Positions 4,086 to 59,236 of a DNA stretch of 64,000 nucleotides are shown piece after piece (the stretch's first letter is position 1; each line of letters starts with the position of its first letter). This DNA is from a methanogenic archaeon ISO4-H5 (GTDB taxonomy: Archaea; Thermoplasmatota; Thermoplasmata; Methanomassiliicoccales; Methanomethylophilaceae). A program made the position numbers and the translations under genes. The stretch lies in contig CP014214.1 in NCBI GenBank assembly GCA_001560915.1, forward strand, positions 1,426,001 through 1,490,000, read 5' to 3'. Below the pieces are notes generated by a model. It was given only the letters and a program-made list of their open reading frames with translations, was not told the origin of the DNA and did no database searches.

Positions 4086-4631
4086 ATGAGTATCGTTGCT
4101 ATCATCTCCAGTCCCGAGAAAAACGGGAACACCGAAGCCGTGGTAAACAGGATCGCTGAGTCAGCCAAGGCAAACGGACAGGAAACACAGGTATTCCACC
4201 TCAACACCATGACCAACAAGAAGGGCTGTCAGGCATGCTTCGGATGCAAGGCTAAGGGCCGCTGCGTGCAGAAGGACGACCTCACCCCCGTGCTCGATGC
4301 CATCCGCGAGGCGGACGGAATCATCCTCTCCACCCCCGTATACTTCGGAGAGGCCTGCGGACAGTACAGACTCCTCGAGGACAGGTTCTTCGGATTCCTC
4401 GACGGTTCCTTCGCTCTCAACATGCCCGCCGGAAAGAAGGTCGCCATCGTCGTCGCCGCAGGTACCGCAGGTGCGGACACCCTCGCCAACAAGATCGAGG
4501 GAGTTATGACCAACTTATTCAAGTGCCAGTGTGTCGGAAAGATCACCTTCAACACTGCCAACAACAAATCCTTCGCAGCCGAGAACTCCGACGTGATGAC
4601 CCAGGCCGACGCGATCGGAAAGAAATTCTGA
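4086..4631 (+). CDS. Iron-sulfur flavoprotein (Isf-like), FMN-dependent
   Basis: A 181-residue NADPH-dependent FMN reductase/flavodoxin-fold protein. The N-terminus carries the FMN phosphate loop (SSPEKNGNTEA). Cys48, Cys51, Cys54 and Cys60 form the compact C-x2-C-x2-C-x5-C motif that binds a [4Fe-4S] cluster in the Isf family of methanogens. Such proteins pass electrons between ferredoxin and O2/H2O2 or other acceptors. The gene is monocistronic with an upstream TTTTTAAT TATA-like element, and a hairpin follows the stop codon. Confidence 0.85.
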   Translation: MSIVAIISSPEKNGNTEAVVNRIAESAKANGQETQVFHLNTMTNKKGCQACFGCKAKGRCVQKDDLTPVLDAIREADGIILSTPVYFGEACGQYRLLEDRFFGFLDGSFALNMPAGKKVAIVVAAGTAGADTLANKIEGVMTNLFKCQCVGKITFNTANNKSFAAENSDVMTQADAIGKKF

Positions 4632-42399: not shown

Positions 42400-45099
42400 T
42401 CACTCGTAACCGCGTCCGAGGACGTGCTTCCTGTCCTCGGCCTTCTCCTCAGCGTACTTGTTGAACTTGAACCTCTTGATGTTGTTCTCGAAGTTGTGCT
42501 CAGGAGGCATGAGCTTCTTGATGGTCTGCATCATCTTGAACATGAAGCTCGAGAGGCCGTGGCTCATTCCGATTCCAAACTTGGTCATTCCGCAGACGAG
42601 GTGTCCAGGGTTCATGACGTCGTGGGGGTCGAGGAAAGTCTTGAGCTCCCTCATGAGGGCGACGGTGTTGGCGTCGTGGGCTGCGTCGAGGTTTCCTGCG
42701 AAGAAGATACCGTATCCGGTGGACCTTCCGCCGTATACCTCTGCCCTGTCGCCGAGATACATGTTGAATGCGAATGCGAGCATTCCGGTCATCATCTCGT
42801 CGTCCTTGAAGTAGTAAGGCATGAACAGGGTGGTCTGGTTGTCGACCATGACACCGATGATTCCACCGATGTCCATCTTCATGACACCGAAGCCGGTGTA
42901 ACACTCGTCGACGAACTTGCCCCAGGTCTTGGCAGGTACGATGACCTCAGCGGGAATCTCTCCGATTCCGACCTTCCTGGCCCTGAACTCGTAGCAGCGC
43001 TCGTCCCACTCGTGGGATGCGATGGAGTCGTCGACCCTCTTTCCGCCGAACTTGGCGGCGAGCTCATCGGTGACTGCGATCTCCATGTCGACGTAGTTCT
43101 CCTGGCCCTGGTAGGTGACAAGGAGGAGGTTGCGTACATCGGGTGCGTGCAGGCCGGCCATCTTCTGGTGCTCGAAGTGGTAGTGGTCGGACCAGGCGAT
43201 GTGGAGAGGCCTGATGCTGGGGTCGGCGATGATTGCCTGGATGACGGGGTTGGCGTCGGCCAGGTTCTCGAAGTCGTATGCCAGGGGGTGGATGACACCC
43301 ATGGGGTGGATCCTGAAGGTAACGGTACCGAAGATACAGGCGGTTCCCTCGGATCCGACGAAGAACTGGTTCAGGTTGAGACCGGAGTTGTAGTTGCCCA
43401 TATCGCCGTAACCGGTGTGCAGGACTTCTCCGTTGGAGAGGATGACCTCCATGTCGAGGACATTGTCCTTGGCGGATCCGTACTTGAAGGATCCGATTCC
43501 CATACCGTTGGTGGAGAGCCAGGCTCCGATGGTCGCGGCGGGGAAGGAAGAGGGGTAGGAACCCACGATGAATCCCTTTGCCATACAGGCGTCGAGGGTG
43601 GCCTTCCAGGTTGCTCCGGACTGGACCTTGACGGTCATGTTCTTCTCGTCGACGACGATCTTGTTGAATTTGGAAGAGCAGTCGCAGACGATTCCGCGGA
43701 ATGCGGGCTGTGCTCCTCCGAGACCCCAGGTGGAGTTTCCGCGGGGAGTGACTGCGATACCGTGCTTGTAGGCCACTTTCATGACGGCGGCGATCTGAGC
43801 GGTGGTGCTGGGCCTGACGACCACATCGGGGATGTTGTCGAAGGCGATTCCCGCCAGCTTGGGCAGGGGTGCGAGATCGTGGCAGTAGAGGAGCCTCTCG
43901 GGTCCGGACTCGTTGACGTTGTCCTTTCCGACGGCCTCGACCAGTTTCTCATGGATTGCGTCGTTGTAGGCGCGGGAGAGTTTGTCGCCGCTCTTGGCGA
44001 TGTCGTCCACGTTGGGCTCTGCAAGGAATCCGGTGAGGTCCCTCATGAACTTGGAGGTAGCCTCGTCGTGGATCTTCTCGATGTTTCCATCGGCGAATGC
44101 CCATCCGCAGGCCTTCCTTCCGCCGCAGGTCTCGATGGTGGCTTTGATGTCATCCATGCTGTCGCTGCTGACGAGAGCGGTGTACCTGTCGACGATCATG
44201 GCCATCTTGGCGTTGGATTTGGCAAGGTTGGCGATGGGGATGACTGCCTTGAACTTGTAGCAGGCAGGCTTGTAGACCGCATCGGACTTCTTTCCGCCGT
44301 TGGCCTCGAGGATGGCATCGGTCTCGGCCGCATCGGTGTCGACGAATGCCTGTGCGCCCTGGTAGTCGAGGAAGAGCATGGTCTTTCCGTCGGCGACCTG
44401 GAGGGTGAACCTCATGGGCTTGAGGTTGGGGTGGCGGATGAGTGCCTGGACAGCTGCGTCGGCCTCTGCGAGTCCTCCGGCGATCTCGTAGGCGAAGGAT
44501 TTGGTGACTCCGGCTGGATATGCCTTGAGGGTGGCGGAGGTGATGATTCCGATTGCTCCCTCGGATCCGGCGAAGATCTGGTTGAGGTTGTAAGCGGACA
44601 TGTATGCGCCGATGTCGTCGTAACCGGTCTCGATGACGGTTCCGTCCTTCAGGACGACCTCAAGGTTGAGGACGGCGTCCCTGGCGGTTCCGTATTTGTA
44701 GCTTCCGTATCCGGGGGTGTTGGAACCCATCCACTCGCCGACGGTGGTCCTGGCAGCGTGGAAAGGCTGTGCTCCAAGGATGAGTCCCTGGGCTGCTGCG
44801 GCGTCGATGACGGCCTGGAAGGTTGCTCCGGCCTTGGCCTTGACGGCGTAGTCCTCGGGAACGACCTCGACCTTCTGCATCTCCTCGGAGAAGGTGACAG
44901 TGATGGGGGTGTTTCCGCAGACGGCTGCGGTCACTTTGGCTTTCTTCGCGATTTTGGCTACGGCAGCGACCTGCTCGGTGCTGCATACAGTAACGGTGAC
45001 TCCTCCCTCGGTTACCTTAACGTTGGCCGCACCTACAGCCGCCACAAGGGCTTCGCAGGTATCAGGGGCAAGTTCGCAGTTCTTTTTGTTGCAATCCAT
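42400..45099 (-). CDS. Tandem double FAD-linked oxidase (GlcD-like) protein
   Basis: A protein of 899 residues containing two GlcD-type modules. The first (about residues 35-400) has AKAGATFQAVIDAAAAQG, YKYGTARDAVLNLEVVLKDG and FAGSEGAIGIIT, but its FAD-pyrophosphate loop is degenerate (VCGNTPITVTFS). The second (about 425-860) has the intact loop TPRGNSTWGLGG, SFKYGSAKDNVLDMEVILSNG and FVGSEGTACIFG. Single GlcD proteins oxidise D-lactate/glycolate and may pair with HdrD-like subunits in this order. The ATG at 45099 follows GGAGG 11-13 nt upstream; seven upstream codons are excluded. Monocistronic. Confidence 0.82.
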   Translation of the reverse strand: MDCNKKNCELAPDTCEALVAAVGAANVKVTEGGVTVTVCSTEQVAAVAKIAKKAKVTAAVCGNTPITVTFSEEMQKVEVVPEDYAVKAKAGATFQAVIDAAAAQGLILGAQPFHAARTTVGEWMGSNTPGYGSYKYGTARDAVLNLEVVLKDGTVIETGYDDIGAYMSAYNLNQIFAGSEGAIGIITSATLKAYPAGVTKSFAYEIAGGLAEADAAVQALIRHPNLKPMRFTLQVADGKTMLFLDYQGAQAFVDTDAAETDAILEANGGKKSDAVYKPACYKFKAVIPIANLAKSNAKMAMIVDRYTALVSSDSMDDIKATIETCGGRKACGWAFADGNIEKIHDEATSKFMRDLTGFLAEPNVDDIAKSGDKLSRAYNDAIHEKLVEAVGKDNVNESGPERLLYCHDLAPLPKLAGIAFDNIPDVVVRPSTTAQIAAVMKVAYKHGIAVTPRGNSTWGLGGAQPAFRGIVCDCSSKFNKIVVDEKNMTVKVQSGATWKATLDACMAKGFIVGSYPSSFPAATIGAWLSTNGMGIGSFKYGSAKDNVLDMEVILSNGEVLHTGYGDMGNYNSGLNLNQFFVGSEGTACIFGTVTFRIHPMGVIHPLAYDFENLADANPVIQAIIADPSIRPLHIAWSDHYHFEHQKMAGLHAPDVRNLLLVTYQGQENYVDMEIAVTDELAAKFGGKRVDDSIASHEWDERCYEFRARKVGIGEIPAEVIVPAKTWGKFVDECYTGFGVMKMDIGGIIGVMVDNQTTLFMPYYFKDDEMMTGMLAFAFNMYLGDRAEVYGGRSTGYGIFFAGNLDAAHDANTVALMRELKTFLDPHDVMNPGHLVCGMTKFGIGMSHGLSSFMFKMMQTIKKLMPPEHNFENNIKRFKFNKYAEEKAEDRKHVLGRGYE

Positions 45100-45182
45100 T
45101 TCAATCGTCCTCCATGCCACCCAGGGGTGACAGGATTATGCGTGCGCGTATTCTGTATCCCTTATTAAGGCTTACCCTGGCG

Positions 45183-45599
45183 TCACGGAGAACGGTATCT
45201 GGCCAGATGCAGTTCCGAGACCAAATCCGTCTTCGTTCCGGCATCCACGCGGAAAAGATGTGTGAGGCACCTGCAGTCGGAACATCCGAAATGCTCCATC
45301 TCCGGGATGCCTCCCAATGCCCCGACACGGTCCGCCAGTTCGCACTCCGGGATCGGTTCCGGGTAGGAGATCCACGCTTCGGAAGAATCGCAGACGGTCG
45401 TCAGGTAATCGATGTGCCATTTGAGCGTCTTCTCATGTGCCAGATGTCTGGCGAGACGCTGGTCGAGACCAGCCATCGCACTGCCCACGTAACAGTACGT
45501 GCCGGCTTTGAAAAGGTGGGGGCCGCGGGCCCCCACGGTGATGTTTCTGTCGCTTCCGAGGGTGACGAAAAGGACATAGGTCCCCTTCCTCACACTCAT
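45183..45599 (-). CDS. DUF123/GIY-YIG-like nuclease-domain protein
   Basis: A 138-residue protein of the DUF123 group, which resembles the GIY-YIG fold: the GTYVLFVTLG start and GTYCYVGSAMAGLDQRLARHLA central motif, then HWHIDYL-type KWHIDYLTT and the Cys-rich CSDCRCLTHLF. In archaea the domain is sometimes fused to endonuclease III, suggesting DNA repair. It overlaps the mmp7 stop by 4 nt (ATGA), making it the last gene of the marker operon, an unexpected companion. Confidence 0.82.
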   Translation of the reverse strand: MSVRKGTYVLFVTLGSDRNITVGARGPHLFKAGTYCYVGSAMAGLDQRLARHLAHEKTLKWHIDYLTTVCDSSEAWISYPEPIPECELADRVGALGGIPEMEHFGCSDCRCLTHLFRVDAGTKTDLVSELHLARYRSP

Positions 45600-46534
45600 T
45601 GCTTTGCCTTCAGGGAATCCTCGTACTCGACCTGCGAGCGGGTCTTGATACGGATCAGCATACTGCTGTCATTGATCTTCGAGGGGGCGATGGTGCACAC
45701 ATCACCCAGACGGCGTCCGTAGACCATCATGTTCTCGACGGCCTCGTGATGCTCCTCGTAGGAGATCTTGGCCCTCAGTCCGTCGAGATGCATGACGATG
45801 GGGGCGGGCCTTAGACACATGTTGATGGGCTCGTAGTTCTCCAGCAGGGACTTGATCTCCGACGGGTGGACGAAGGGCGGGTCCTCCTCGAGGGCTTTCT
45901 TCTTGTCGGCAAGGATCTCCTCGATGCGGTCGGAGACCTCTTCGAGCTTCTGCCTGTCGGCGGGTTCCCTCATACGGGATGCCTTCCTGCCGACACCGTA
46001 GACGATGGCGTCGCAGGTGTGTTCGATTCCCTCGGGCTTGGGTCCGCAGACCAGCACGGTGGGGATGTTGATCTTGCTCAGGAGCAGATCGGCTTTGGTC
46101 TCCACGCAGGACTTGAAGTTGCCGAGCATGAACACGCATGCGTCGTACTCGTCGATGATGGAGGTCTCCTGGAGATTGATCTGGGACGTTAGCTTCCCCC
46201 TTCCCCTGGCAAGACCCATGACTACGGTGATCGCACCGCAGCGGCGAAGGTACTCCGCAATGTCGCAGATGGGGTGGGGCATGTGGTGGCGTCCCAGGGT
46301 GGGACCTACCACCGCGATTTCGGTACCCGCGAGAGGCACCTCCTTCACCTGTCCTCCGATATCCTTGCAGAGGGCCTCGACCAGAGGTCTGTCCTCGGAG
46401 GGGGTGGACATGGTCACGGTGAGCATCTGGGAGCTGCGGTTCTTCATCAGGACCACTCCGCCCACATCCTCGATGAGCTCGAAGAGCTCGTCGGAACGGT
46501 AGATTCCTCCGTCGTACATTATGACCTCATACAT
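45596..46534 (-). CDS. mmp7: Methanogenesis marker protein 7
   Basis: A 312-residue protein of the methanogen-specific marker 7 family (MYEVIMYDGGIYRSDELFEL start; VVGPTLGRHHMPHPICDIAE). Mmp7 has been found together with McrC and Mmp17 in the ATP-dependent MCR-activation complex. Cys residues at FKSCVETK, VLVCGPKP and HTCDAIVYG could bind Fe-S clusters. I start at 46534 (ATG with GGAGGTGA upstream) rather than a GTG at 46543. It overlaps mmp17 by 8 nt. Confidence 0.88.
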   Translation of the reverse strand: MYEVIMYDGGIYRSDELFELIEDVGGVVLMKNRSSQMLTVTMSTPSEDRPLVEALCKDIGGQVKEVPLAGTEIAVVGPTLGRHHMPHPICDIAEYLRRCGAITVVMGLARGRGKLTSQINLQETSIIDEYDACVFMLGNFKSCVETKADLLLSKINIPTVLVCGPKPEGIEHTCDAIVYGVGRKASRMREPADRQKLEEVSDRIEEILADKKKALEEDPPFVHPSEIKSLLENYEPINMCLRPAPIVMHLDGLRAKISYEEHHEAVENMMVYGRRLGDVCTIAPSKINDSSMLIRIKTRSQVEYEDSLKAKQ

Positions 46535-47108
46535 CGATCTCACCTCCCTTCTTCATGGCCTCGTGAATCACGGTGGCCTCATCCAGCATCTCGGGCTGCA
46601 TCCTCTCCTCGGTAGCGACGACAGTAATGACGTCGGTGTCCGCCAGGGTGCGCCTGACACGGATTCCCTCGGGAAGCACCCTGTAGAGCGCTCCCAGGAC
46701 CTCCTGGATGGGCTGTTCGTTGGACTCCACCTCGATCTCGTCGACCTCGAAGGAGCTGGATACCCCTTTGACCGCGATGTCGAGCCTGTCGAGCTGCTGC
46801 ACGTTGTCCCTGCCGTACCTGTTCCAGAGCGCCTTGAGGGTACCGGGTGCGTACATCTCGTCGGAGATGCTCACGTACACGGTATCGCGCTCCGACCTGG
46901 TGGATGCCACGACCCCGATGGTCTTGGCCGAGGGCAGGGCCTTCATCTTCACCGAGATGATGAAGAGGGGCACCTTGGGTTTCAGCACCAGGTAGGATTT
47001 CTCCACGGCCGCAAGTTTACCGACGTCGTACATGAGCTCCTCGTAGAGAGCCTTGTACCTCTCGTTTCCGTATTCGTCGGTTCCTGTGACCACTGTTTCA
47101 GCTGGCAT
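46527..47108 (-). CDS. mmp17: Methanogenesis marker protein 17
   Basis: A 193-residue protein of the marker 17 family, specific to methanogens and alkane-oxidising relatives. The N-terminus (ETVVTGTDEYGNERYKALYE) and C-terminal TDVITVVATEERMQPEMLDE are family-like. There are no obvious catalytic motifs. It is thought to be a structural component of the MCR activation complex. It starts 9 nt after mmp15. Confidence 0.85.
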   Translation of the reverse strand: MPAETVVTGTDEYGNERYKALYEELMYDVGKLAAVEKSYLVLKPKVPLFIISVKMKALPSAKTIGVVASTRSERDTVYVSISDEMYAPGTLKALWNRYGRDNVQQLDRLDIAVKGVSSSFEVDEIEVESNEQPIQEVLGALYRVLPEGIRVRRTLADTDVITVVATEERMQPEMLDEATVIHEAMKKGGEIDV

Positions 47109-47117
47109 GGTCGCACC

Positions 47118-48341
47118 TCACAGCATTCCCGAACTGAGCAGGGCTCCGCCCACGGCTCCGATGTACTGGGAGTCAGGAGGCACGATCGGAGGCTCTCCAA
47201 GCACCTCTCCGATGGCCTTCACGAGACCTGCGTTGAGGGAGGTTCCTCCGACCTGGATAATGGGGTGCCTGACGTCGACCTCCTGCAGCTGCTGCTCGTA
47301 GACCTGCTCCGCGACGGAGTGGCAGGCGGCGGCCGCTACGTCCTCGAAGGACTTTCCGGCTCCGAGGGTGGTGACCAGGTCCTGGATTCCGAAGACGGAA
47401 CAGTAGGAGTTCATCTTCGCATTGACCCAGTTACCCTTGACTGCGTAGGATCCGAGTTCCCCGATGGGGACCTTCAGCCTCCTGGCGGTCATCTCGAGGA
47501 AACGTCCCGAAGCTCCGGCACAGATTCCTCCCATGGTGAAGTTGTCGGGGACTCCGTCCCTGACGGTGATGGCCTTGTTGTCCATTCCTCCGATATCGAT
47601 GATGGTGGCCTCTCCCCTCTGCCTGTCGGCCAGCCAAACGGCGCCCTTGGAGTTGACGGTCAGCTCCTCCTGCACGAGTTTGGCCTTGAAGTGGGTACCG
47701 AGGGTGAACCTTCCGTATCCGGTGGTTCCCATGGCCTCGATCTGCTTAAACTCGATACCGGCCATCTTCATGGCCTCCTCCAGGACCTCGGTGGCGCACT
47801 GGACGACATCTCCGGATGCAGTCCATGCCTTTCCGATGATCTTGTTGTTCTCCATGATGACGCACTTGGTGGTGGACGATCCGGAGTCGAGACCCGCGGT
47901 GATTCCGGTCTGCCTCTCCCTGGCAAGGAGTTCCTTCCTCGAGACGATGGTGACGAGAGCCTCCATCCTGGTGAGGAGCTGGGATGCCTTCAGCCTCTCG
48001 GTGAAGGAATAGGTGACGACGGGGAGCCTGGTGTTCTCCTGGATGAACCTCCTGAGCTCGTTCCTGACCAGGGCGGCCTCCGCACACCTGAAACAGGTGG
48101 TGATGAATACCGCATCGGCCTCGTAGAGACCGTCGGCGAGGCTGACCGCACGGGCGATCATGAGCTGCAGCTGAGGCGATTTGGGGGTGAATCCGAAACG
48201 TTCCAGGGCGCTCTTGACCTGGTCGTAGGAGACATCAGGGTAGACGATCTTGGCTCCGACGGAACGGGCTGCGGACTCGATCTCGTACTGTACTCCGCTG
48301 TACTCGGTACCGCAGGAGAGCTGGGCGATCCTGATGGTCAT
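47118..48341 (-). CDS. mmp15: Methanogenesis marker protein 15 (BadF/BcrA-type ATPase)
   Basis: A 407-residue protein whose C-terminal two thirds belong to the BadF/BadG/BcrA/BcrD activator ATPases: phosphate loop [16 protein letters not shown], the cluster-type Cys in [14 protein letters not shown] and [10 protein letters not shown], and [13 protein letters not shown]. Activators of this type use ATP and an interfacial [4Fe-4S] cluster to drive electrons to low potential, so a role in reductive activation of MCR Ni(I) is plausible. The ATG at 48341 overlaps mmp5 by 4 nt. Confidence 0.88.
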
Positions 48342-48775
48342 TCCTTCAGACCTCCCAGGAAATCCTTGATCTGTCCGACCATGGTCTTGGCCTCCTCCTC
48401 GCTGGAGGGGTACTGCACGGTGAGGGCGGGGATACCGCGCCTCTTGATGCGGTACTTGGTGAGCTCGTTGGAACGGTCGCATCCGACGCATCCGAAGCTG
48501 AACGGGGGGTTCTCGATGATGATGGCAGCATCGGCAGCCTCGATCATGGGTCCCCAGATGGCCAGCCTTCCCCTGATTCCGGAAGGAACCTCCACTCCGG
48601 CGTACTTGAGTCCTTTGACGACGTCGTCAAGGGTAACGTTCATGGGCGGCATGTCGACCTCGATGTTGTCGACTTTCTCCTGGATGAGAGCCATCGAACT
48701 CAGGGGTTCGTGGCCGAACCTCTCCACCAGGTCGAAGAGGATCATGCTGTTAGGGGGATCTATGAATACCTTCAT
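48338..48775 (-). CDS. mmp5: Methanogenesis marker protein 5
   Basis: A 145-residue protein of marker 5 type ([26 protein letters not shown] start). A Cys pair in [20 protein letters not shown] is close to a metal-site pattern. It is encoded between mmp6 and mmp15 with 4-nt overlaps on both sides, hence the same polycistron and probably the same complex or pathway. No reaction is known. Confidence 0.85.
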
Positions 48776-49197
48776 CTGAAAGCCTCGCTGATTTCTTTCA
48801 TTTCTTTGACGGGAAGGGGTTTCTTATCGACAGGTTTCTGATAATCGTCTTTTCCGGCGTCGAACTCATCCAGTGCATACTGGATCAGCGGGAGGCACTC
48901 CCATTCGGCCTCCAGCTGCGCGTATCCGGGACGCGTTCCGTGCTGTGCACGGCATCTCCTGGGGTCCCCTGCGGGGAATCCCCTGACCTTGGAAAAGACC
49001 TCGTTGCGGTAAGTGGTGCGGACCTTCTCCATGACGATCCTCATGGTCTCCGCATCCGATTCCGCCAGGCATCCGTAGCAGGTCTCCTTGACGTTGATGC
49101 CGGGGGCCATGGTCTGCACGTTGCGGACCAGCTGGTCCGGGGTGACCATGGAGTTGGGGGAGATCATGAGCAGTCTGGTTACTCTCTGCTGACTCAT
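48772..49197 (-). CDS. mmp6: Methanogenesis marker protein 6
   Basis: A 141-residue protein of the marker 6 family (RLLMISPNSMVTPDQLVRNV). Conserved-looking parts are KETCYGCLAESDAETMRIV and FPAGDPRRCRAQHGTRPGYA. The family occurs strictly with MCR. It overlaps mmp3 and mmp5 by 4 nt each. Function unknown. Confidence 0.86.
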   Translation of the reverse strand: MSQQRVTRLLMISPNSMVTPDQLVRNVQTMAPGINVKETCYGCLAESDAETMRIVMEKVRTTYRNEVFSKVRGFPAGDPRRCRAQHGTRPGYAQLEAEWECLPLIQYALDEFDAGKDDYQKPVDKKPLPVKEMKEISEAFR

Positions 49198-50705
49198 AGT
49201 TTGGCCTCCGTGATGTAGATGATCTGTTCGTCGTCCAGTACCTCCATGTCGGCGAGGTCGCCAAAGAACTTACCGACCAGGTTGGTTCCGTAGGGCTCCT
49301 CTCCGGTGGGACCGTACTGTTTGCTGTCGATGAGCCTGATACCGATCAGACCGTGGTGCGGCCTGGACTGGTTGGTGACCCCAATCTCTCCCTTCTTGCA
49401 TTTCTTGAAGGGTTCCTGAGGGTAGAGGTTCTGTGCCCTGGGCTCATCGCCGTAGAAGGTTACCATCGGAGAACCGGGGAACGAGAACTGGGTCTTCAGC
49501 TGACCGATGGACTTGTGGCTCAGTCCGGTGACCTTCTTGAAGTAGTGAACGGTGGCTTCATCGTCGGTGGTGATCGAGATGCGGTAGATCCTGTCGCGGG
49601 GTACTCCGAAGGTCTCCACTTCGCCCTTCTTGAGAGCCTCCATGGTCTCCTCCGGTCCCTGGTCGACGATGACCGCGTCATCGGAGGTGTCTCCGGTACG
49701 GATCTGTTTAACTCCGTACTTGGCGAGGAATGCCGCTCCCGCCTTCTGTGTCATCCCGACCGAGATGATGCGGGGAGGGTCGGTCTCCACGGCGATGATG
49801 TCGCCGGCCTGTGCACGGGCCATGAGCGCCATTCCGTCGGTGACCTCTCCGGCGGTGTTGAGGTCGGGGGACACCTGTCTCCTCTCTCTGTAGAAGAGGA
49901 TGTGTCCCTTGCCCACACCCGCATGCCTGACCATTACCTGGCCGACGTCGCGGACGCCGCTGATCTCGGCGTCCAAATCGACGTCCATGTCATCCCTGCA
50001 TCCCATGAAGGTACCGCTTCCCTCGGACACGTTGATGTATCCCTTGGAGGTGATGATGAGGACGTGCTCAGCGGATTTCGGAGACTCGTGCTTCAGGGTG
50101 ACCAGCACACGGGTGCTGATCCTGTAGCCGTCCTCCAGGGGCTGGCTGAGATCCTTGGTGATGATGACGTTGTCCTGACTGGTCTCGGACACGACGGGGT
50201 GGATGTCCACGATGCCCTGCCCTTCCTTGATGAGGTTCAGCAGGTGCCTTCCGACCGTGATCTTTCCGATCTTGCCGGATCCCGCACCGTACGCCTTGGT
50301 GAAATTGGATTTGGCCACCATCAGGTAGGTGGTCTGGTTGTCGTTTCCTCCGAGGGAGAAGAAGCACTCGAAACGGCGGTACATGCCCGCATCCGCGCTG
50401 TAGGGGATGTCGGTGGGGAACGAACCGAACGCCACGAGCTCCTTGTTGGCCCACCTGATGTTGGACCCGACAGCCTCGTCGGCGTATTTCCTGAAGAGCT
50501 TCGCTTCGGGGGTGTCGTACAAGTGGAGAACCATCTCGCCCTGTTCGGTGACGATGGCGAAGTCGTTGGTGACCTCGGTCACCTTCTCGGTGGACAGGTA
50601 GATGGAAACGGTGGAACCTTCCACATACCTCTCGCCGGCGACCGCATCCTTCAGGGTTGCACCCTCTTTGAGGGTCTTCTCCTTCCCGTTGACGAATACC
50701 TTCAT
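49194..50705 (-). CDS. mmp3: Methanogenesis marker protein 3
   Basis: A 503-residue protein of the marker 3 family. The N-terminus looks like a small ubiquitin-like beta-grasp ([20 protein letters not shown]); the C-terminal half contains [17 protein letters not shown] and resembles a cyclophilin-like beta barrel. It is known to associate with MCR activation. It shares the polycistron with mcrC upstream (4-nt overlap). Confidence 0.88.
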
Positions 50706-51322
50706 CTGGATTCCTCCGTGGGAAGGATCTTCTGGAGTTTCGAGGCGATCTCGTCGAGCTTCTCCTGGGGACAGGTGACTCCCCTGACGACGCCGGTGAC
50801 GATGTCCTCGATGGTACCCATGGTACCGATGTTGTCCTTATCGGGCATGACGTCGCGGGTCTTCACGCCGATGGCGGCGAAGTCCTCGAAGTCCACGGGA
50901 CACTGGGCCACCACGACGGCGGGGATGTCCACGTTCCTGAGGATCAGCCTCGCTTTGTAAACGATGTGGTTCCTGACGTTCCCGAGGTGGATCAGCGCCA
51001 CCTTGTACTGCCTTATCCTGTCGACCTCGATGGGATCCAGTCCGAACCTGGATCCGGTGGTGACATCAGGTGCGTCGGTGGGGACTCCGGAACCGGAATT
51101 GACCACCAGGACCGAGGCGTTGATGCCGACCTCCCTGAGGGCATATGTGATCTCGCACACCGGCTTGGTGATGTGCCTCCTCCCGGGACCCATGGCAATG
51201 ACGCAGACGTCCTTGCCGCTCTCGGAGATGGTGGCCCTCTGGGCCAGACCTCCTCCGATTCCGAGTCCCTGGGAGTCCCTGCACTCTACGAAGCTCAGGT
51301 GTCTCCCTATCTGCTGCTTCAT
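50702..51322 (-). CDS. mcrC: Methyl-CoM reductase operon protein C / activation factor
   Basis: A 206-residue McrC protein. Landmarks are [40 protein letters not shown] and [16 protein letters not shown]. In hydrogenotrophic methanogens mcrC lies inside mcrBDCGA; here it heads the marker gene series, as expected in Methanomassiliicoccales. McrC is part of the ATP-dependent complex that reduces F430 Ni. It follows atwA after 25 nt. Confidence 0.92.
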
Positions 51323-51347
51323 GAACGTATCCTCTGTCTGGTTCAGA

Positions 51348-52943
51348 TCATTCCATGGGTCCGCGGAGCTCGTCGAACTTCTTCATCATGTCCTCAGGCT
51401 TGCCGATGCCCACGACCTTTCCATCCTTCATGAAGGCTGCACGGTCGCAGCAGTTCTTGACGAAGTCCATGTCGTGGCTGACGACGATGAAGGTCTCTCC
51501 GAGGGTCTCCCTGGCGCGGAGGACGGATTTGGCGACGATGACCTTGGTGATGGGGTCCATGGTTCCGGTGGGCTCGTCAAGGAGGACGATACGGGGCTCC
51601 TTGATGAGGACCTGGGCGAAGGCGATCCTCTGACACTCTCCCACGGAGAGGGTGTCGGGGTAGGCCTCGAGGACCCTGTTGACGTCCTTCTTCTCGAATC
51701 CCACGCTGATGAGGACCTGTACGGCCTTCATGCGGGCCAGCTCGGCGGGCATGTTGATTCCGATGCAGGTGGTGAGGTTCTGCAGGACGGTGTCGAACGG
51801 GTAGAGGGTGTACTCCTGGTGGAGGACGCCGATGTAGGGGGTCGCACGGCCCTTGTTCTGGTATCCGTCCTTGGACATGTCGACCCAGTCGTCACCGATA
51901 CGGACCTCCACCTTTCCTTTGGTGGCATTGGACAGACCGCAGATCATCCTGGAAAGGGTGGTCTTGCCTGCGCCGGAGAATCCCACGATGGCGAAGCATT
52001 CCCTCTCGTTGATGTCGAAGGAAACTCCGTCGACGGCTTTGACGACTCCCCTGGATACGGAGAAGAAGTGCTTCTCGGCGTCGGTGAGGCGGACGATCTC
52101 GCTTCCGAGGTTCTCGATCTCGCTCCTGTCGAAGTGGTAACCCTCCATGAACTTCTGGGTGATGGGTTTGGGTTCTCCCTTCATCTTGGTGACTCCACCC
52201 TCGAGCCAGAAGGCCTCGTCCGCCATCTTGTCGATGGCCTCGGGCCAGTGGGAGGCGAACACCATGCAGATGTTGTTCTCCCTGACGTACTGGACCAGTT
52301 TCTGGTGGATGATTTCGGCGGTGTAGGGGTCGAGGGTTCCGGTGGGCTCGTCGGCCAGGAAGAACAGGGGCTTCTTGGCGAGCTGCCTGGCAAGGACGAT
52401 CCTCTGTTTCTCTCCTCCGGACAGGTCACGCGCGATGTGCATGGTCCTGTGGCTCATGTGTACGAATTCGAGGAGGGCGATGGCCTTCTCCACACGGTTG
52501 GGGGTATCGGTACCGATGGCCTCCAATACGTTCTCGATGACTGTGAGGTCTCCCCAGAGAGCGAAGGTCCTCTGGAGCATGATGGCAACCCTGTTCTTGA
52601 TGGCCTCCCTCATGGCGTCGTATTCCTTGAGGGCCCAGAAGTCCACATCGATGCGCTCGGTGTCCCCGTTGCAGATCTTACAGGCCGATCCCTCGTAGGG
52701 GAGTCCGAGATGCCTGCATTTGACGCAGCAGGTGACGTGGTAGATGACGCGCCCGGAGTCGGGCTGGTACTCGGGGTTTCCCCTCAGCATGTGGAGGAGC
52801 ACGCTCTTACCTGCACCGCTCTTTCCGATGAGTCCGGTGATCTGGCCGGTGCGGATTACAGCGCTGAAGTTGTCAAGTACGACCTTACCGTTGAATTTCT
52901 TCGTAACGTTCTCAATCGTGATCAGTTCGACCGGTTGTGACAT
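51348..52943 (-). CDS. atwA: MCR activation component A2 (AtwA), double ABC ATPase
   Basis: A 531-residue ATP-binding protein with two ABC modules. The first has Walker A GKSGAGKS (residues about 38-45), signature LSGGEKQR and [11 protein letters not shown]; the second has GFSGAGKTT, signature LSVGECQR and [11 protein letters not shown]. Between the Walker A and signature of module 1 lie two Cys pairs (CCVKC and CKIC), a zinc or Fe-S site. A2 supplies ATP for reductive activation of MCR. It has a TATATA promoter at 52966-52971 and probably a leaderless mRNA; first gene of the nine-gene run to 45183. Confidence 0.95.
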
Positions 52944-55020: not shown

Positions 55021-56682
55021 TCATCCCTTGATGACTGCGGTCCTCTCTCCGGCAGGGACGAACTCCCTGAGTCCTCCGCGTCCGAACTCTTTGGTAACGT
55101 TAGCGAAGTCGAAGACGAGGTCCTTGTCGGAGAATGCGACCTTGATCATGGGGTTGGCGACGAATGCGTCTCCACGAGCGAGGTGAGCTGCCTTGGGGAT
55201 ACCTGCGTATCCGGAAAGGTGTCCGACGTTCATTGCGTAGTTGGGGTAGTTAGGACCACGGAGCTCCATGGGCAGACCCTCATCGGACCTGTATGCATAG
55301 GAGTTCGCGGAACCGCACTGGTCCTGCAGGTCGAATCCGTAGAATCCGAGCCTTCCGGTCCTCTCCTTGTGCTGGAGCATGGACTGGTACCAGGCGTTCA
55401 GACCGTTGTCAGCAACTCCGGTTGCCATAGCGGTGATGATACCGGTGGATGCGGCGGTAACGGTTGCCCTCTGGGATCCTCCGAAGTGGATCTCCATAAC
55501 GGCGGGGTACCTCTCGTACATCTCAAGTGCGTAGGAGGAGATCTCGTCGGCGAGCTTGAGCTGTTTCTTGTAGTCGTCGGGCTTGACACCGCAGAATCCG
55601 CCGTAGCGGTCTTTGATGGTGTCGATTCCGTGGTAGACGTAGTCCTCAAGGATGTTGTCGGTGTATGCTGCGGTAGCGTACTGGGTGAATCCGACTCCAC
55701 CGGACATGTATCCACCGAGGTAGACCTGGTCGTAGATACCGGCTGCGAGAGCAACGGTCTCGAGTGCTGCACGTCCAGGGTCGTCAGGGTAGACACGGTC
55801 GGACTGGACCATATCGTCGAGGAATCCGAAGGTGATTCCTCCGGGCTCGTTGGGTCCCCTGACACGCCTTGCGGGCATCATGGATCCCATGGTGATGGAC
55901 TGGTGCTTTGCGGAGTATGCGAAGTCAGCGATGGCTGCCTCTCCGGCTGCGAGTTTGTAGGCGGAGATGAATGCCATGGAAATCTGCATTGCTGCGTGCC
56001 TGGAGACGGTTCCTCCATCCATGAGCCTTCCGACCATGGTGGGGACACGGACAGCCTGCATGAAAGTGTTTCCGATTGCTTTCTTCAGCTGTGCTGCCTG
56101 CTCCTTGGGGAAGTTCTTGTTGATGTCGATAACGAACCTGGGGTCGATCTCATCAATAAGGTCATCGTTTCCGGAGAAGACTTTGACGTAAGAGTCTGCA
56201 ACGAGTGCAGGGTTGCACTCTGCCATGTGCTCCTGAACGACTGCTCCTCCAGGCATGGTGTGGTTGACGACTTCAAGGTAGTTGGAGATGGTCTCGGGGG
56301 TGACCTCCTTTCCAAGCCTCTTTTCGATGGTCTGGTGAGGGAAGTCGAGTCCGACGAGGACAGTCCTCCTGATGTCGTCCCATGCCTGCTGGATTGCAGG
56401 GTTGTTGATGCAGTGAAGGTCATCGGGCTCTACGAAGATGTCAGTGTGGGACAGCTGGTAGGGCATCCAGGACCTCTGTCCGAGAGGAACTCCGATGTCC
56501 TCGTTCATCATGGGGAATCCACGTTTCTTGGCGATCTCCGCGGCGGTAGCCTGGAGCTCAACTTTCCTCTTGGACTGTTTCCAACCGCCGTAGCAGTAGT
56601 ACTTGGTGTCCATCTGGGTGGGTTCTTCCTTGAACTTCTTCTTGCATGCTTCAAGGAAAAGTTTCTGATCTTTTGCAGCCAT
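55021..56682 (-). CDS. mcrA: Methyl-coenzyme M reductase subunit alpha
   Basis: The 553-residue catalytic subunit that binds F430 and forms methane from methyl-CoM and CoB. Hallmark sequences are intact: [20 protein letters not shown] (modified Arg region), the MCR signature [32 protein letters not shown] (thioglycine region) and [20 protein letters not shown]. The ATG at 56682, with GGTGAG upstream, is chosen over a GTG two codons earlier; it lies 2 nt after the mcrG stop. Single MCR type; no mrt-like second copy is in the window. Confidence 0.98.
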
Positions 56683-56684
56683 TT

Positions 56685-57461
56685 TCACTCACCTTTTACA
56701 TCGAAGGGCCTGAATCCGCCGAGGGTCCTGAGTTTGTGAATCCTGAGGTAGAAGTCGGTCACTTCTTTGTCGTCCCTCATGTCGACGCCATCTGCTCTGA
56801 AGATGGTGGTCCTCTTCTTGAGGTCGGACATGGATGCGGGCTTTCCGACATAGATCTTCTTGTCGAGAGGCAGCGCAACCTGGTCTTTCACATACATAAC
56901 TTCTTTCTTCTTGTCGTCCCAGAGGTACCTCTGCCAGCCGTCGAACATAAGTCCGTGCTCGTCGAGACGGCAGGAGTGTCCGTGAACGGTTGCTCCCCTG
57001 ATACCGGTAAGGGCGGGGTCGAAGGTCTCGTTGTCGATAAGCTCTTTTGCAACCTGCTCGAGGTTCCTCTCACGCATCTCGATGATCTGCCTTCCGGAAA
57101 GGGTTCCGGTGTCGACTCCCCTGTACCTGGAAAGGTACATCCATGCCCTCTGGTAGGGAGAGATGGGTGCGAAGTAGACGGAGTCGGTGAACTGGATGTA
57201 CCTGACACGGTCTCCAGCGGCGGCTCCCTCGATGGGGGTGACGAGTTTCCTGATGGGGCACTCGGGCTCGTTGGCCTCGGTGATCGGGGGGTGGATGCTC
57301 TTGTAAGCCTCTCCAGGGGCCCTGTGTCCCATAATCCTTACAACATCGTCCATGGGGACGTCACGAAGCTGTTTGAGCTTCACTTTGGGATCCAGGTACC
57401 TGCGCCTGTTTTTGGCGGGGGTGGTGGTTCCCGGGAAGAACTGTCTCTTGTATTTTGCCAT
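56685..57461 (-). CDS. mcrG: Methyl-coenzyme M reductase subunit gamma
   Basis: The 258-residue gamma subunit of the (alpha beta gamma)2 enzyme. Family traits are [40 protein letters not shown] and [20 protein letters not shown]. It contributes residues to the substrate channel. Two nt separate it from mcrD and from mcrA, so translation is coupled. Confidence 0.97.
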
Positions 57462-57463
57462 AA

Positions 57464-57889
57464 TTAAGCACTCCTATAGTCGTGAAGGGATGGTCTGTAT
57501 TTCGAGTACCTGCCTACGTCGATGGTATAACCATCAGGGATGGTCCGATCGAAGGCAGCTTTGATCTCGTCTACCGTCTTGTCCATTTCAGCCTCATCGG
57601 TGACGGAGAGCTCGATGTAGAAAGCGCCCACCAGACAGTGGAGCTCCACCTCGTGTCCGTTCACGTGAATCACCTTGCGCTCAGTGTGATTGTTGGCAAG
57701 TCCCTTGGCGGGGCCGCTGCTGATCGTCCTGGGCAGACTCTCTCCGCTCATGTTGATCTGGCGGAGGTTGGGAATGACGTCGATGTCATTCAGAATCTTC
57801 TCGGTGGTCTCGGCGCTGAGGAGACGGTTCGTCATCACGCGGACCTCTGGAAGAGGGACGTTCGCGTAATCAACGGTTGGGGTAGACAT
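57464..57889 (-). CDS. mcrD: Methyl-coenzyme M reductase operon protein D
   Basis: A 141-residue McrD protein (VRVMTNRLLSAETTEKILND, INMSGESLPRTISSGPAKGL, YYIDVGRYSKY-like C-terminus). It is not part of the mature enzyme; it binds unactivated MCR and is thought to act in assembly or cofactor delivery. Located between mcrB and mcrG, with mcrC absent from the operon. Confidence 0.94.
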   Translation of the reverse strand: MSTPTVDYANVPLPEVRVMTNRLLSAETTEKILNDIDVIPNLRQINMSGESLPRTISSGPAKGLANNHTERKVIHVNGHEVELHCLVGAFYIELSVTDEAEMDKTVDEIKAAFDRTIPDGYTIDVGRYSKYRPSLHDYRSA

Positions 57890-57907
57890 GTACAGACCTC
57901 AATCTCC

Positions 57908-59236
57908 TCAGATTTTGTTCTTAATCTTCTTAGCCTCTGCTCCAACGATCTGGAGGGGGGTGTTGAATTCGGGCATTCCTCCGAAGATCTTCTGGAATAC
58001 ACCAGAGGTCTTCTCTGCGGAGAAGAACTGGGTTCCTCCGTCAAGGCAGTTTCCTGCAGTGACAGCGGGGATGAGAGTTCCTTTTGCGTGCCTGGTAACG
58101 ACGTGGTTTCCGTGGAACAGTCCAGGACCTCCTCCTCCGTAGATGGAGTGAGAGAAGAAGGACATTCCGACTCCGACTCCCTCTGCACGTCCGTAGTCGA
58201 CTCCAGGGAGTCCGGACTCGTGCTCGAGCAGGTCGTTGTAGTACAGAACAGTGGAGGGGACTCCCTGTGCTGCCCTTGCGGCTCCGACGTTCACCATAAC
58301 TGCGGCAACCTCTCCGGCTGCTGCGTATGCGTTCCAGAGGGGAAGGTCATCGGTGGTGTATACCTTGTATCCAGAGGGGAGGACCTCTTTTACGCGGATG
58401 ACACCGTCAGCGATTGCCCTCTCCATGAGGGACTCGATAACAGTTCCGACAGTTCCGGTCTTTCCGTTCTTCTTGACGAGAGAGTATACGATGTTGTTGG
58501 CGTTCATTCCCTGGTATGCGAGGGACAGAAGGTGCTGCCTCTCGAAGGGTCCGACTGCGTCACCCATCTCGTATGCGGCGCAGGTCTCGAAGATTGCGGA
58601 CAGGGCGACACCCTGCATTGCGTTCCTCTTGACAAGTGCAACGACGTGGTTGGACATGATGTTCCTAAGTGCGAATCCGGCACCCTCGTTGTTCTGGGGG
58701 ACCTCAAGAATGGTCTTGATGTTGGATCCGACGAAGTTGACGGTCTGAGGGTATTTACCCCAGACTGCGGCCTTGACCATGTTGGCTTTGTACATAGGCA
58801 CTTTGTACCTAGTGATGATAGCCTCGGTGACTGCTGCAGCGACGCTGGTGAATCCAGTGGTGTACTCGATTCCTGCATCGGTCCTCGCCTGAGGGACGAT
58901 AACGACAAGGGTCTTTCCTTCGTCGATGACGTTAACGACAGTGTCGTCGCCGTCTACGACCTGGACCATCTCCTTGATGTCCTTTGCGAGTTTCTCTGCA
59001 TCCTTGACGAGATCGGCTTTGATCTCTTTACCCTGGATGATGTTGCCAGCGATTGCGCCGGTTGCCAGTGCATTCTGGATTCCTGCGAGACTGACTCCGA
59101 TAGTCCTCTTGGTCAGGGAAGCAATTTTCTGGATTGCTTTGTTCCTGAGGGGGCTAAGGGCTTCCAGCGGCACATCTTTAGCAATGCGCTTGCCGTAGTC
59201 ATCATACAAGTCAATTTTGTCCTCGTATTTTGGCAT
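57908..59236 (-). CDS. mcrB: Methyl-coenzyme M reductase subunit beta
   Basis: The 442-residue beta subunit. Family sequences include IDLYDDYGKRIAKDVPLEAL at the N-terminus, GYKVYTTDDLPLWNAYAAAG, and SIYGGGGPGLFHGNHVVTRH towards the C-terminus, which helps bind coenzyme B. First gene of mcrBDGA; preceded by an excellent Shine-Dalgarno AAGGAGGT. Confidence 0.97.
   Translation of the reverse strand: MPKYEDKIDLYDDYGKRIAKDVPLEALSPLRNKAIQKIASLTKRTIGVSLAGIQNALATGAIAGNIIQGKEIKADLVKDAEKLAKDIKEMVQVVDGDDTVVNVIDEGKTLVVIVPQARTDAGIEYTTGFTSVAAAVTEAIITRYKVPMYKANMVKAAVWGKYPQTVNFVGSNIKTILEVPQNNEGAGFALRNIMSNHVVALVKRNAMQGVALSAIFETCAAYEMGDAVGPFERQHLLSLAYQGMNANNIVYSLVKKNGKTGTVGTVIESLMERAIADGVIRVKEVLPSGYKVYTTDDLPLWNAYAAAGEVAAVMVNVGAARAAQGVPSTVLYYNDLLEHESGLPGVDYGRAEGVGVGMSFFSHSIYGGGGPGLFHGNHVVTRHAKGTLIPAVTAGNCLDGGTQFFSAEKTSGVFQKIFGGMPEFNTPLQIVGAEAKKIKNKI

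Follow-up and report, generated by a model that had tools for sequence, protein, structure and literature searches.

The window analysed here is a stretch of 64,000 nucleotides (contig CP014214.1, positions 1,426,001–1,490,000) of the genome of the rumen methanogen ISO4-H5, an archaeal genome which consists of one contig of 1,937,883 bases. Its minus strand carries, in order of transcription, mcrB, mcrD, mcrG, mcrA, A2, the mcrC-type gene, mmp3, mmp6, mmp5, mmp15, mmp17, mmp7, DUF123 and a gene for a GlcD-like protein, which we call glcD2 and which closes this mcr/MCR-activation gene cluster (Table 1). The marker-gene order published for ISO4-H5, as given in passages of PMC5011839, agrees with that of the window.

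A preliminary description of this DNA had read glcD2 as a fused tandem GlcD of 899 residues preceded by a strong ribosome-binding site. Both points hold: the ORF comprises 899 codons (ATG at 45099, stop at 42400), Pfam places FAD_binding_4 twice and FAD-oxidase_C once on its product, and a GGAGG stands 9 nt ahead of the ATG. The description overlooked both the position of glcD2 at the end of the cluster and the loss of the GlcD catalytic motif from the half that it regarded as intact. Note that the hairpin beyond the stop codon, terminator-like by its T run, is not among the hits of a consensus terminator scan. The plus strand holds a 914-aa ORF opposite glcD2 (42424–45168), which we read as an antisense shadow of the gene; this frame and another one at 46521–48779 (752 aa) are, as we read them, shadow ORFs arising from biased codon usage.

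Table 1. Position of glcD2, its modules and motifs, and its neighbours in the window
Feature	Coordinates	Strand	Basis
glcD2 (working name), tandem GlcD-like protein, 899 aa	42400..45099	-	ORF list, translation, Pfam
N module, residues 1–365, GlcD/D-LDH fold without FAD pyrophosphate loop	44005..45099	-	module alignment, predicted structure
Site of lost pyrophosphate loop in N module, residues 56–70	44890..44934	-	alignments
C module, residues 366–899; single-module form in most genera of the order	42403..44004	-	alignment, genome survey
FAD pyrophosphate loop of C module, residues 452–465, PRGNSTWGLGGAQP	43705..43746	-	PRG.[SA][ST] in 60/60 C/single modules
Family-specific conserved motif, residues 696–708, HEWDERCYEFRAR	42976..43014	-	conserved alignment columns
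Site of lost GlcD/D-LDH metal-His motif, residues 745–763, GGIIGVMVDNQTTLFMPYY	42811..42867	-	alignments
Shine-Dalgarno-like GGAGG	45109..45113	-	9 nt ahead of glcD2 ATG, read from sequence
Terminator-like hairpin, then T run, past glcD2 stop codon	42356..42383	-	fold -20.9 kcal/mol, z -3.40
DUF123 gene, immediate upstream neighbour of glcD2	45183..45599	-	profile match
mmp7, mmp17, mmp15, mmp5, mmp6	45596..49197	-	profile matches
mmp3, mcrC-type gene, component A2 (atwA)	49194..52943	-	profile matches
mcrA, mcrG, mcrD, mcrB	55021..59236	-	similarity

The position of glcD2 recurs across the Methanomassiliicoccales. In all 40 genomes with upstream sequence, the gene comes after mmp7, mmp17 or mmp15 and shares their strand; it is thus encoded with the genes of the MCR activation complex (39 of these genomes come from 41 loci and the window is the fortieth; L073, where the contig ends, and L047, on the same contig as L054, were dropped). 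Where DUF123 was picked, the gap separating it from glcD2 is about 35–115 bp in most loci of family f1, in which co-transcription is likely, and 300–2900 bp in most loci of families f2, f3, f5 and f6, often with other frames in between. Among the main texts searched, no paper linking a GlcD-like protein to the marker cluster of the order came up. In several families of the order (L065, L069, L072, L074 and L085), a gene whose product has an MKVIGISGSPR-like start (flavodoxin/FMN-reductase-like by eye) lies between mmp7 and DUF123; its homolog in the window is far from the cluster, at 4086–4631. In G075 (L079/L034), the DUF123 region and the glcD2 frame follow each other with no stop in between, and the resulting 1186-aa open frame is possibly a DUF123–GlcD fusion or a sequence error; L020 and L053 may present the same situation.

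Two modules of unequal conservation

The modules were compared in an alignment of one locus per genome, with 35 N modules set against 60 modules of the C or single kind. Two rows were excluded, L041 for an internal stop and L052 because its gene is split over two frames; L023 (G044) ranks among the single C modules solely because the contig breaks off, a match to residues 1–290 sitting on another contig. The pyrophosphate-loop motif PRG.[SA][ST] is present in all C or single modules and in 0/35 N modules. In the product of glcD2 itself, the N half reads VCGNTPITVTF where the C half carries PRGNSTWGLGGAQP. The loop region persists as a SSNNPSWATDGT-like sequence in the N modules of genera g8 and g6 and is shortened or deleted in those of g1 and g9, related genera displaying stages of loop decay. 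The fold seems to have outlived the loop: the predicted structure of the N module (pLDDT 75, pTM 0.71) matches mLDHD (8jdy) in a fold search with a Z of 28.2 and an rmsd of 3.0 over 320 aligned residues, and the module is still predicted to adopt a D-lactate dehydrogenase-like fold. The model of the full-length product was poor (pLDDT 53.8) and its fold search gave an rmsd of about 20 Å, so that neither was used as evidence. Altogether, the earlier claim that the N half kept the GlcD pattern and lost the pyrophosphate loop is borne out; binding of FAD by both halves is unlikely given the missing N loop, and nothing was found in support of a second cofactor in the pseudo-module, which had also been suggested. 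By its domain and its loop, the C module belongs to the FAD_binding_4/VAO-PCMH flavoproteins; the N module has the domain and the fold but lacks the loop motif.

The N module is nonetheless under purifying selection, as judged from dN/dS ratios of 0.06–0.44 in 11 of 12 pairs (0.89 in the remaining one, L034/L035), and it changes faster than the C module, for which the ratios are 0.03–0.36. It provides an example of a duplicated flavin domain retained under selection after the loss of its cofactor loop.

The C module had been called complete, which is true of the FAD loop but not of catalysis. The GlcD/D-LDH motifs HxxDGNxH and [GAS]EHG were searched for in the C or single modules and found in 0/60, and both are present in the GlcD encoded at 257 kb in the same genome (L002, row OG_L002). 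The D-lactate dehydrogenases mLDHD and LctD (8jdb, 7qh2) are the top sequence and fold matches of the glcD2 product; yet, in a profile alignment with mLDHD, GHVGDGNFH stands opposite GvvvDrntv, and the His mutated in 8jdb (H405A per its title) has no His at the matching position, nor has the neighbouring motif His. What the alignment columns reveal is a conserved set proper to the family: Y405, D408, A410–P413, H633, D638, H641, HEWxERCYExRxR and FMPYY. In addition, the NCBIfam glcD equivalog gives 202.4 bits for the glcD2 product, against a cut-off of 567.9. On both catalytic/metal motifs and equivalog score, the protein therefore lies outside the GlcD/D-2-hydroxyacid dehydrogenases, and its C module is best described as bearing an FAD loop without being a complete GlcD, the metal/His site for 2-hydroxy acid oxidation being gone. 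The LctD-like, EtfAB-linked gene of this genome is a separate gene: at about 810 kb (L087 4566–7938), a FAD_binding_4/FAD-oxidase_C gene is followed by EtfB and EtfA, the layout of an LctBCD-like bifurcating lactate dehydrogenase, here in a methanogen.

Distribution of the family and origin of the tandem

At a best E below 1e-60, 137 of 147 genomes of the order have a family-level match, as do 73 of the 74 good ones, the exception being G137; these counts are read from individual rows, a broader tally of 144/147 including ordinary GlcDs. A scan of the genome contigs gave 3 loci. The fused architecture, which the preliminary description proposed to look for in other Methanomassiliicoccales, occurs in 35 of the 60 genes compared, and an open frame of at least 880 aa is present at the glcD2 gene in 49/147 genomes, every one in genera g1, g6, g8 and g9. 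With tandem genes in so many genomes, an assembly artefact is ruled out.

In the tree, all 35 N modules fall into a single clade (support 99) whose inner groups mirror the C-module groups, which argues for one duplication in the ancestor of g1, g6, g8 and g9, followed by losses. The single-module genes of G034, G037 and G043 come from the same genus as tandem bearers; upstream of them, no clear trace of an N module came to light, the matches there being read as the mmp7/DUF123 region. The N-module clade attaches inside g1, a placement that we attribute to long branches. Outside the order, four genomes (G473, G400, G454 and G162) carry tandems too, with a weak N module. In a careful tree built without the rows of 17 loci and without OG_L087, their N modules stand apart from those of the order, and a topology constrained to unite every N module is worse by 26 log units (p-AU 0.0405), on long branches. 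Two origins of the tandem, one in the order and one outside, would be the better reading, although a weakly supported one.

HdrD-type partners of the family

High-scoring members of the family were found in 12 genomes of other Thermoplasmatota, and MCR alpha in none of the 12. The family would therefore not have arisen for MCR activation; that these lineages lack MCR points to an earlier function elsewhere. According to the homology search, an HdrD/GlcF-type gene lies directly after the glcD gene, on the same strand, at 11 of 15 outside loci (L098–L101, L104, L105 and L108–L112); the search found no HdrD neighbour at the other four (L102, L103, L106 and L107). Ten proteins were submitted to a profile scan, seven of which are downstream neighbours, and all seven matched TfrB/GlcF/HdrB-type profiles. 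Moreover, a single 903-aa polypeptide of G186 (L113 6474–9185) joins an HdrD-like part to a GlcD-like part of more distant kinship.

The counterpart of these partners in ISO4-H5 is the HdrD encoded at 50 kb, referred to as HdrD1, which is the best match of all eight partners first tested (32–44% identity). From the order of accessions, we infer that it corresponds to the hdrD1 of Borrel et al. and to the HdrD tabulated for M. luminyensis (passages of PMC4153887 and PMC7374477). In the trees, the HdrD1 of the order is nearest to the L098 partner (93/91) and then to those of L108–L110, which are outside tandems (98/94); neither the LarA-linked HdrD (184 kb) nor the HdrDs linked to ordinary GlcD group with it. 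These trees rule out the LarA-linked HdrD as the partner of GlcD2. The flavoprotein tree likewise makes L098 the sister of the order (99/98), L111 and L101 being placed less consistently between the flavoprotein and HdrD trees. HdrD1 is present in 145/147 genomes and in 74/74 good ones; by these counts and by the tree, the partner lineage of a GlcD–HdrD two-component system exists in the order. The earlier suggestion of an HdrD-like partner for the pseudo-module thus gains support for the whole family, single-module members included, but not for the pseudo-module specifically.

Within the order, hdrD1 and glcD2 were never seen linked: glcD2 lies beside the marker genes, and hdrD1 adjoins a helicase-like gene (about 915 aa) in 13/13 loci (L115, L117–L127 and L136). 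At L098, genes for a multiheme cytochrome c, a cytochrome b561, GlcD and HdrD follow one another in this order, which suggests that the GlcD–HdrD pair of this locus works in a membrane electron chain. By eye, hdrD1 in several families also has genes resembling those of membrane complex I or hydrogenases in its vicinity. At about 184 kb in ISO4-H5 (L006 47–1827), a 221-aa LarA C-terminal-domain protein is encoded directly ahead of the second HdrD-type protein.

Possible function of GlcD2 and related systems

The reading that we favour, with about even confidence, is that GlcD2 is a catalytically altered flavin subunit working with HdrD1 and that its N module is a structural pseudo-subunit. GlcD2, an FAD protein of the GlcD/D-LDH fold, would serve the reduction of CoM-S-S-CoB by moving electrons between HdrD1 and a further carrier, for which ferredoxin and the headless Fpo complex are possible candidates in this order, and the place of glcD2 after the mcr and marker genes would co-express it with MCR, the maker of CoM-S-S-CoB. 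The N module would be a duplicated copy that lost FAD and survived by replacing the second protomer of a dimer, a replacement that we put forward as an inference only. This reading builds on (i) the FAD loop of the C or single modules, its loss from the N modules and the missing catalytic motifs; (ii) the retained fold of the N module and its dN/dS ratios; (iii) the HdrD-type genes downstream of the outside glcD genes and the single chain of G186; (iv) the kinship of HdrD1 with the outside partners, above all that of L098, whose flavoprotein is likewise sister to that of the order; (v) the presence of HdrD1 in all good genomes and of the flavoprotein family in all but one; and (vi) the cytochrome genes of L098. 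Against it stand the separation of glcD2 from hdrD1 in the order, the four outside loci lacking an HdrD neighbour, the poor full-length model and the fact that HdrD activity in M. luminyensis is explained without GlcD in passages of PMC7374477.

The main rival, which we hold to be possible but unlikely, assigns GlcD2 to the MCR activation complex as an accessory whose FAD would feed the McrC/Mmp7/Mmp17 iron-sulfur chain for reduction of the F430 nickel to Ni(I). The same-strand position behind mmp7, mmp17 or mmp15 in 40/40 genomes fits this idea, as do two points in passages of PMC12176620: the outermost cluster of the published complex is near the surface, and ferredoxin is merely suggested as the physiological donor. 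However, the outside genomes carry the family without MCR alpha, most f2, f3, f5 and f6 loci have wide gaps to DUF123, so that co-transcription there is no more than possible, and the same passages do not mention a flavin ('flavin' gives 0 matches). The components of the M. maripaludis complex that they name include no GlcD. Unlikely, too, is that GlcD2 is a flavoenzyme which acts on some small substrate, hands its electrons to some carrier and has nothing to do with HdrD1 or MCR in the order: the pocket-like set formed by Y405, D408, H633, H641, HEWxERCYE and FMPYY does resemble an active site, and some outside loci have no HdrD neighbour, but co-inheritance with HdrD1 and the fixed place after the MCR-activation genes speak against it. 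It is conceivable, though we give it little credence, that GlcD2–HdrD1 docks on MCR and its activation complex, electrons of the heterodisulfide step also re-activating the F430 nickel and the blank N module of the tandems serving as a docking surface; the pair would then connect heterodisulfide reductase with MCR activation by way of a flavin.

Two further alternatives concern the modules themselves. That the N module is a functionless, decaying leftover of the duplication would account for its faster evolution and for the single-module genes of G034, G037 and G043, but we consider it quite improbable in view of dN/dS ratios below 0.45 in 11/12 pairs, of the retention of the module in four genera with its modelled fold intact and of a comparable tandem outside the order. 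Least probable is an ordinary glycolate/D-lactate dehydrogenase (GlcD) in tandem: fold and Pfam domains fit, but the catalytic His motifs are missing from every C or single module, the equivalog score is far too low and the genome has a separate ordinary GlcD elsewhere. The absent motifs and the sub-threshold score lead us to discard it.

In published accounts of the Methanomassiliicoccales, HdrD works with an Fpo-like complex and, in the passages considered, without GlcD (PMC4153887, PMC7374477, PMC10804542); the order lacks HdrE, and electron supply to HdrD is modelled there as direct contact with the headless Fpo complex (PMC7374477, PMC10804542). GlcD2 is a nearly order-wide flavoprotein that shares its inheritance with HdrD1 and whose gene comes after those for MCR activation; it offers a concrete and testable candidate for a missing component of the electron chain.

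Besides the D-lactate dehydrogenases, three known systems come closest. Glycolate oxidase combines an FAD subunit (GlcD), a second FAD-domain polypeptide (GlcE) and a CCG iron-sulfur subunit (GlcF); GlcE sits beside GlcD as the N module stands next to the C module, and the best stretch of the GlcE profile falls in the N half of the glcD2 product. Unlike in glycolate oxidase, however, the GlcD score is far under the curated cut-off, the His motifs are lost and the N modules arose, according to the trees, inside the glcD2 family; the N module is therefore not GlcE by descent, and its identification as a true GlcE is ruled out. The partner HdrD-type proteins resemble the CoM/CoB-dependent fumarate reductase TfrAB in that, among NCBIfam models, they score highest with TfrB, albeit under its cut-off. 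TfrA is an SdhA-type flavoprotein, whereas the flavin subunit here is of the GlcD type. Finally, hdrD–glcD pairs or complexes have been proposed in Verstraetearchaeota, and co-location of hdrD and glcD has been noted in Archaeoglobi (passages of PMC6783470 and PMC6474303). These, too, associate a GlcD-type FAD protein with an HdrD-type iron-sulfur protein, a likeness in the kind of pair; the Methanomassiliicoccales differ in that the two genes are unlinked, with glcD2 placed after the marker cluster, and in that the protein has lost the GlcD catalytic motif and, in its tandem form, consists by half of an FAD-less copy.
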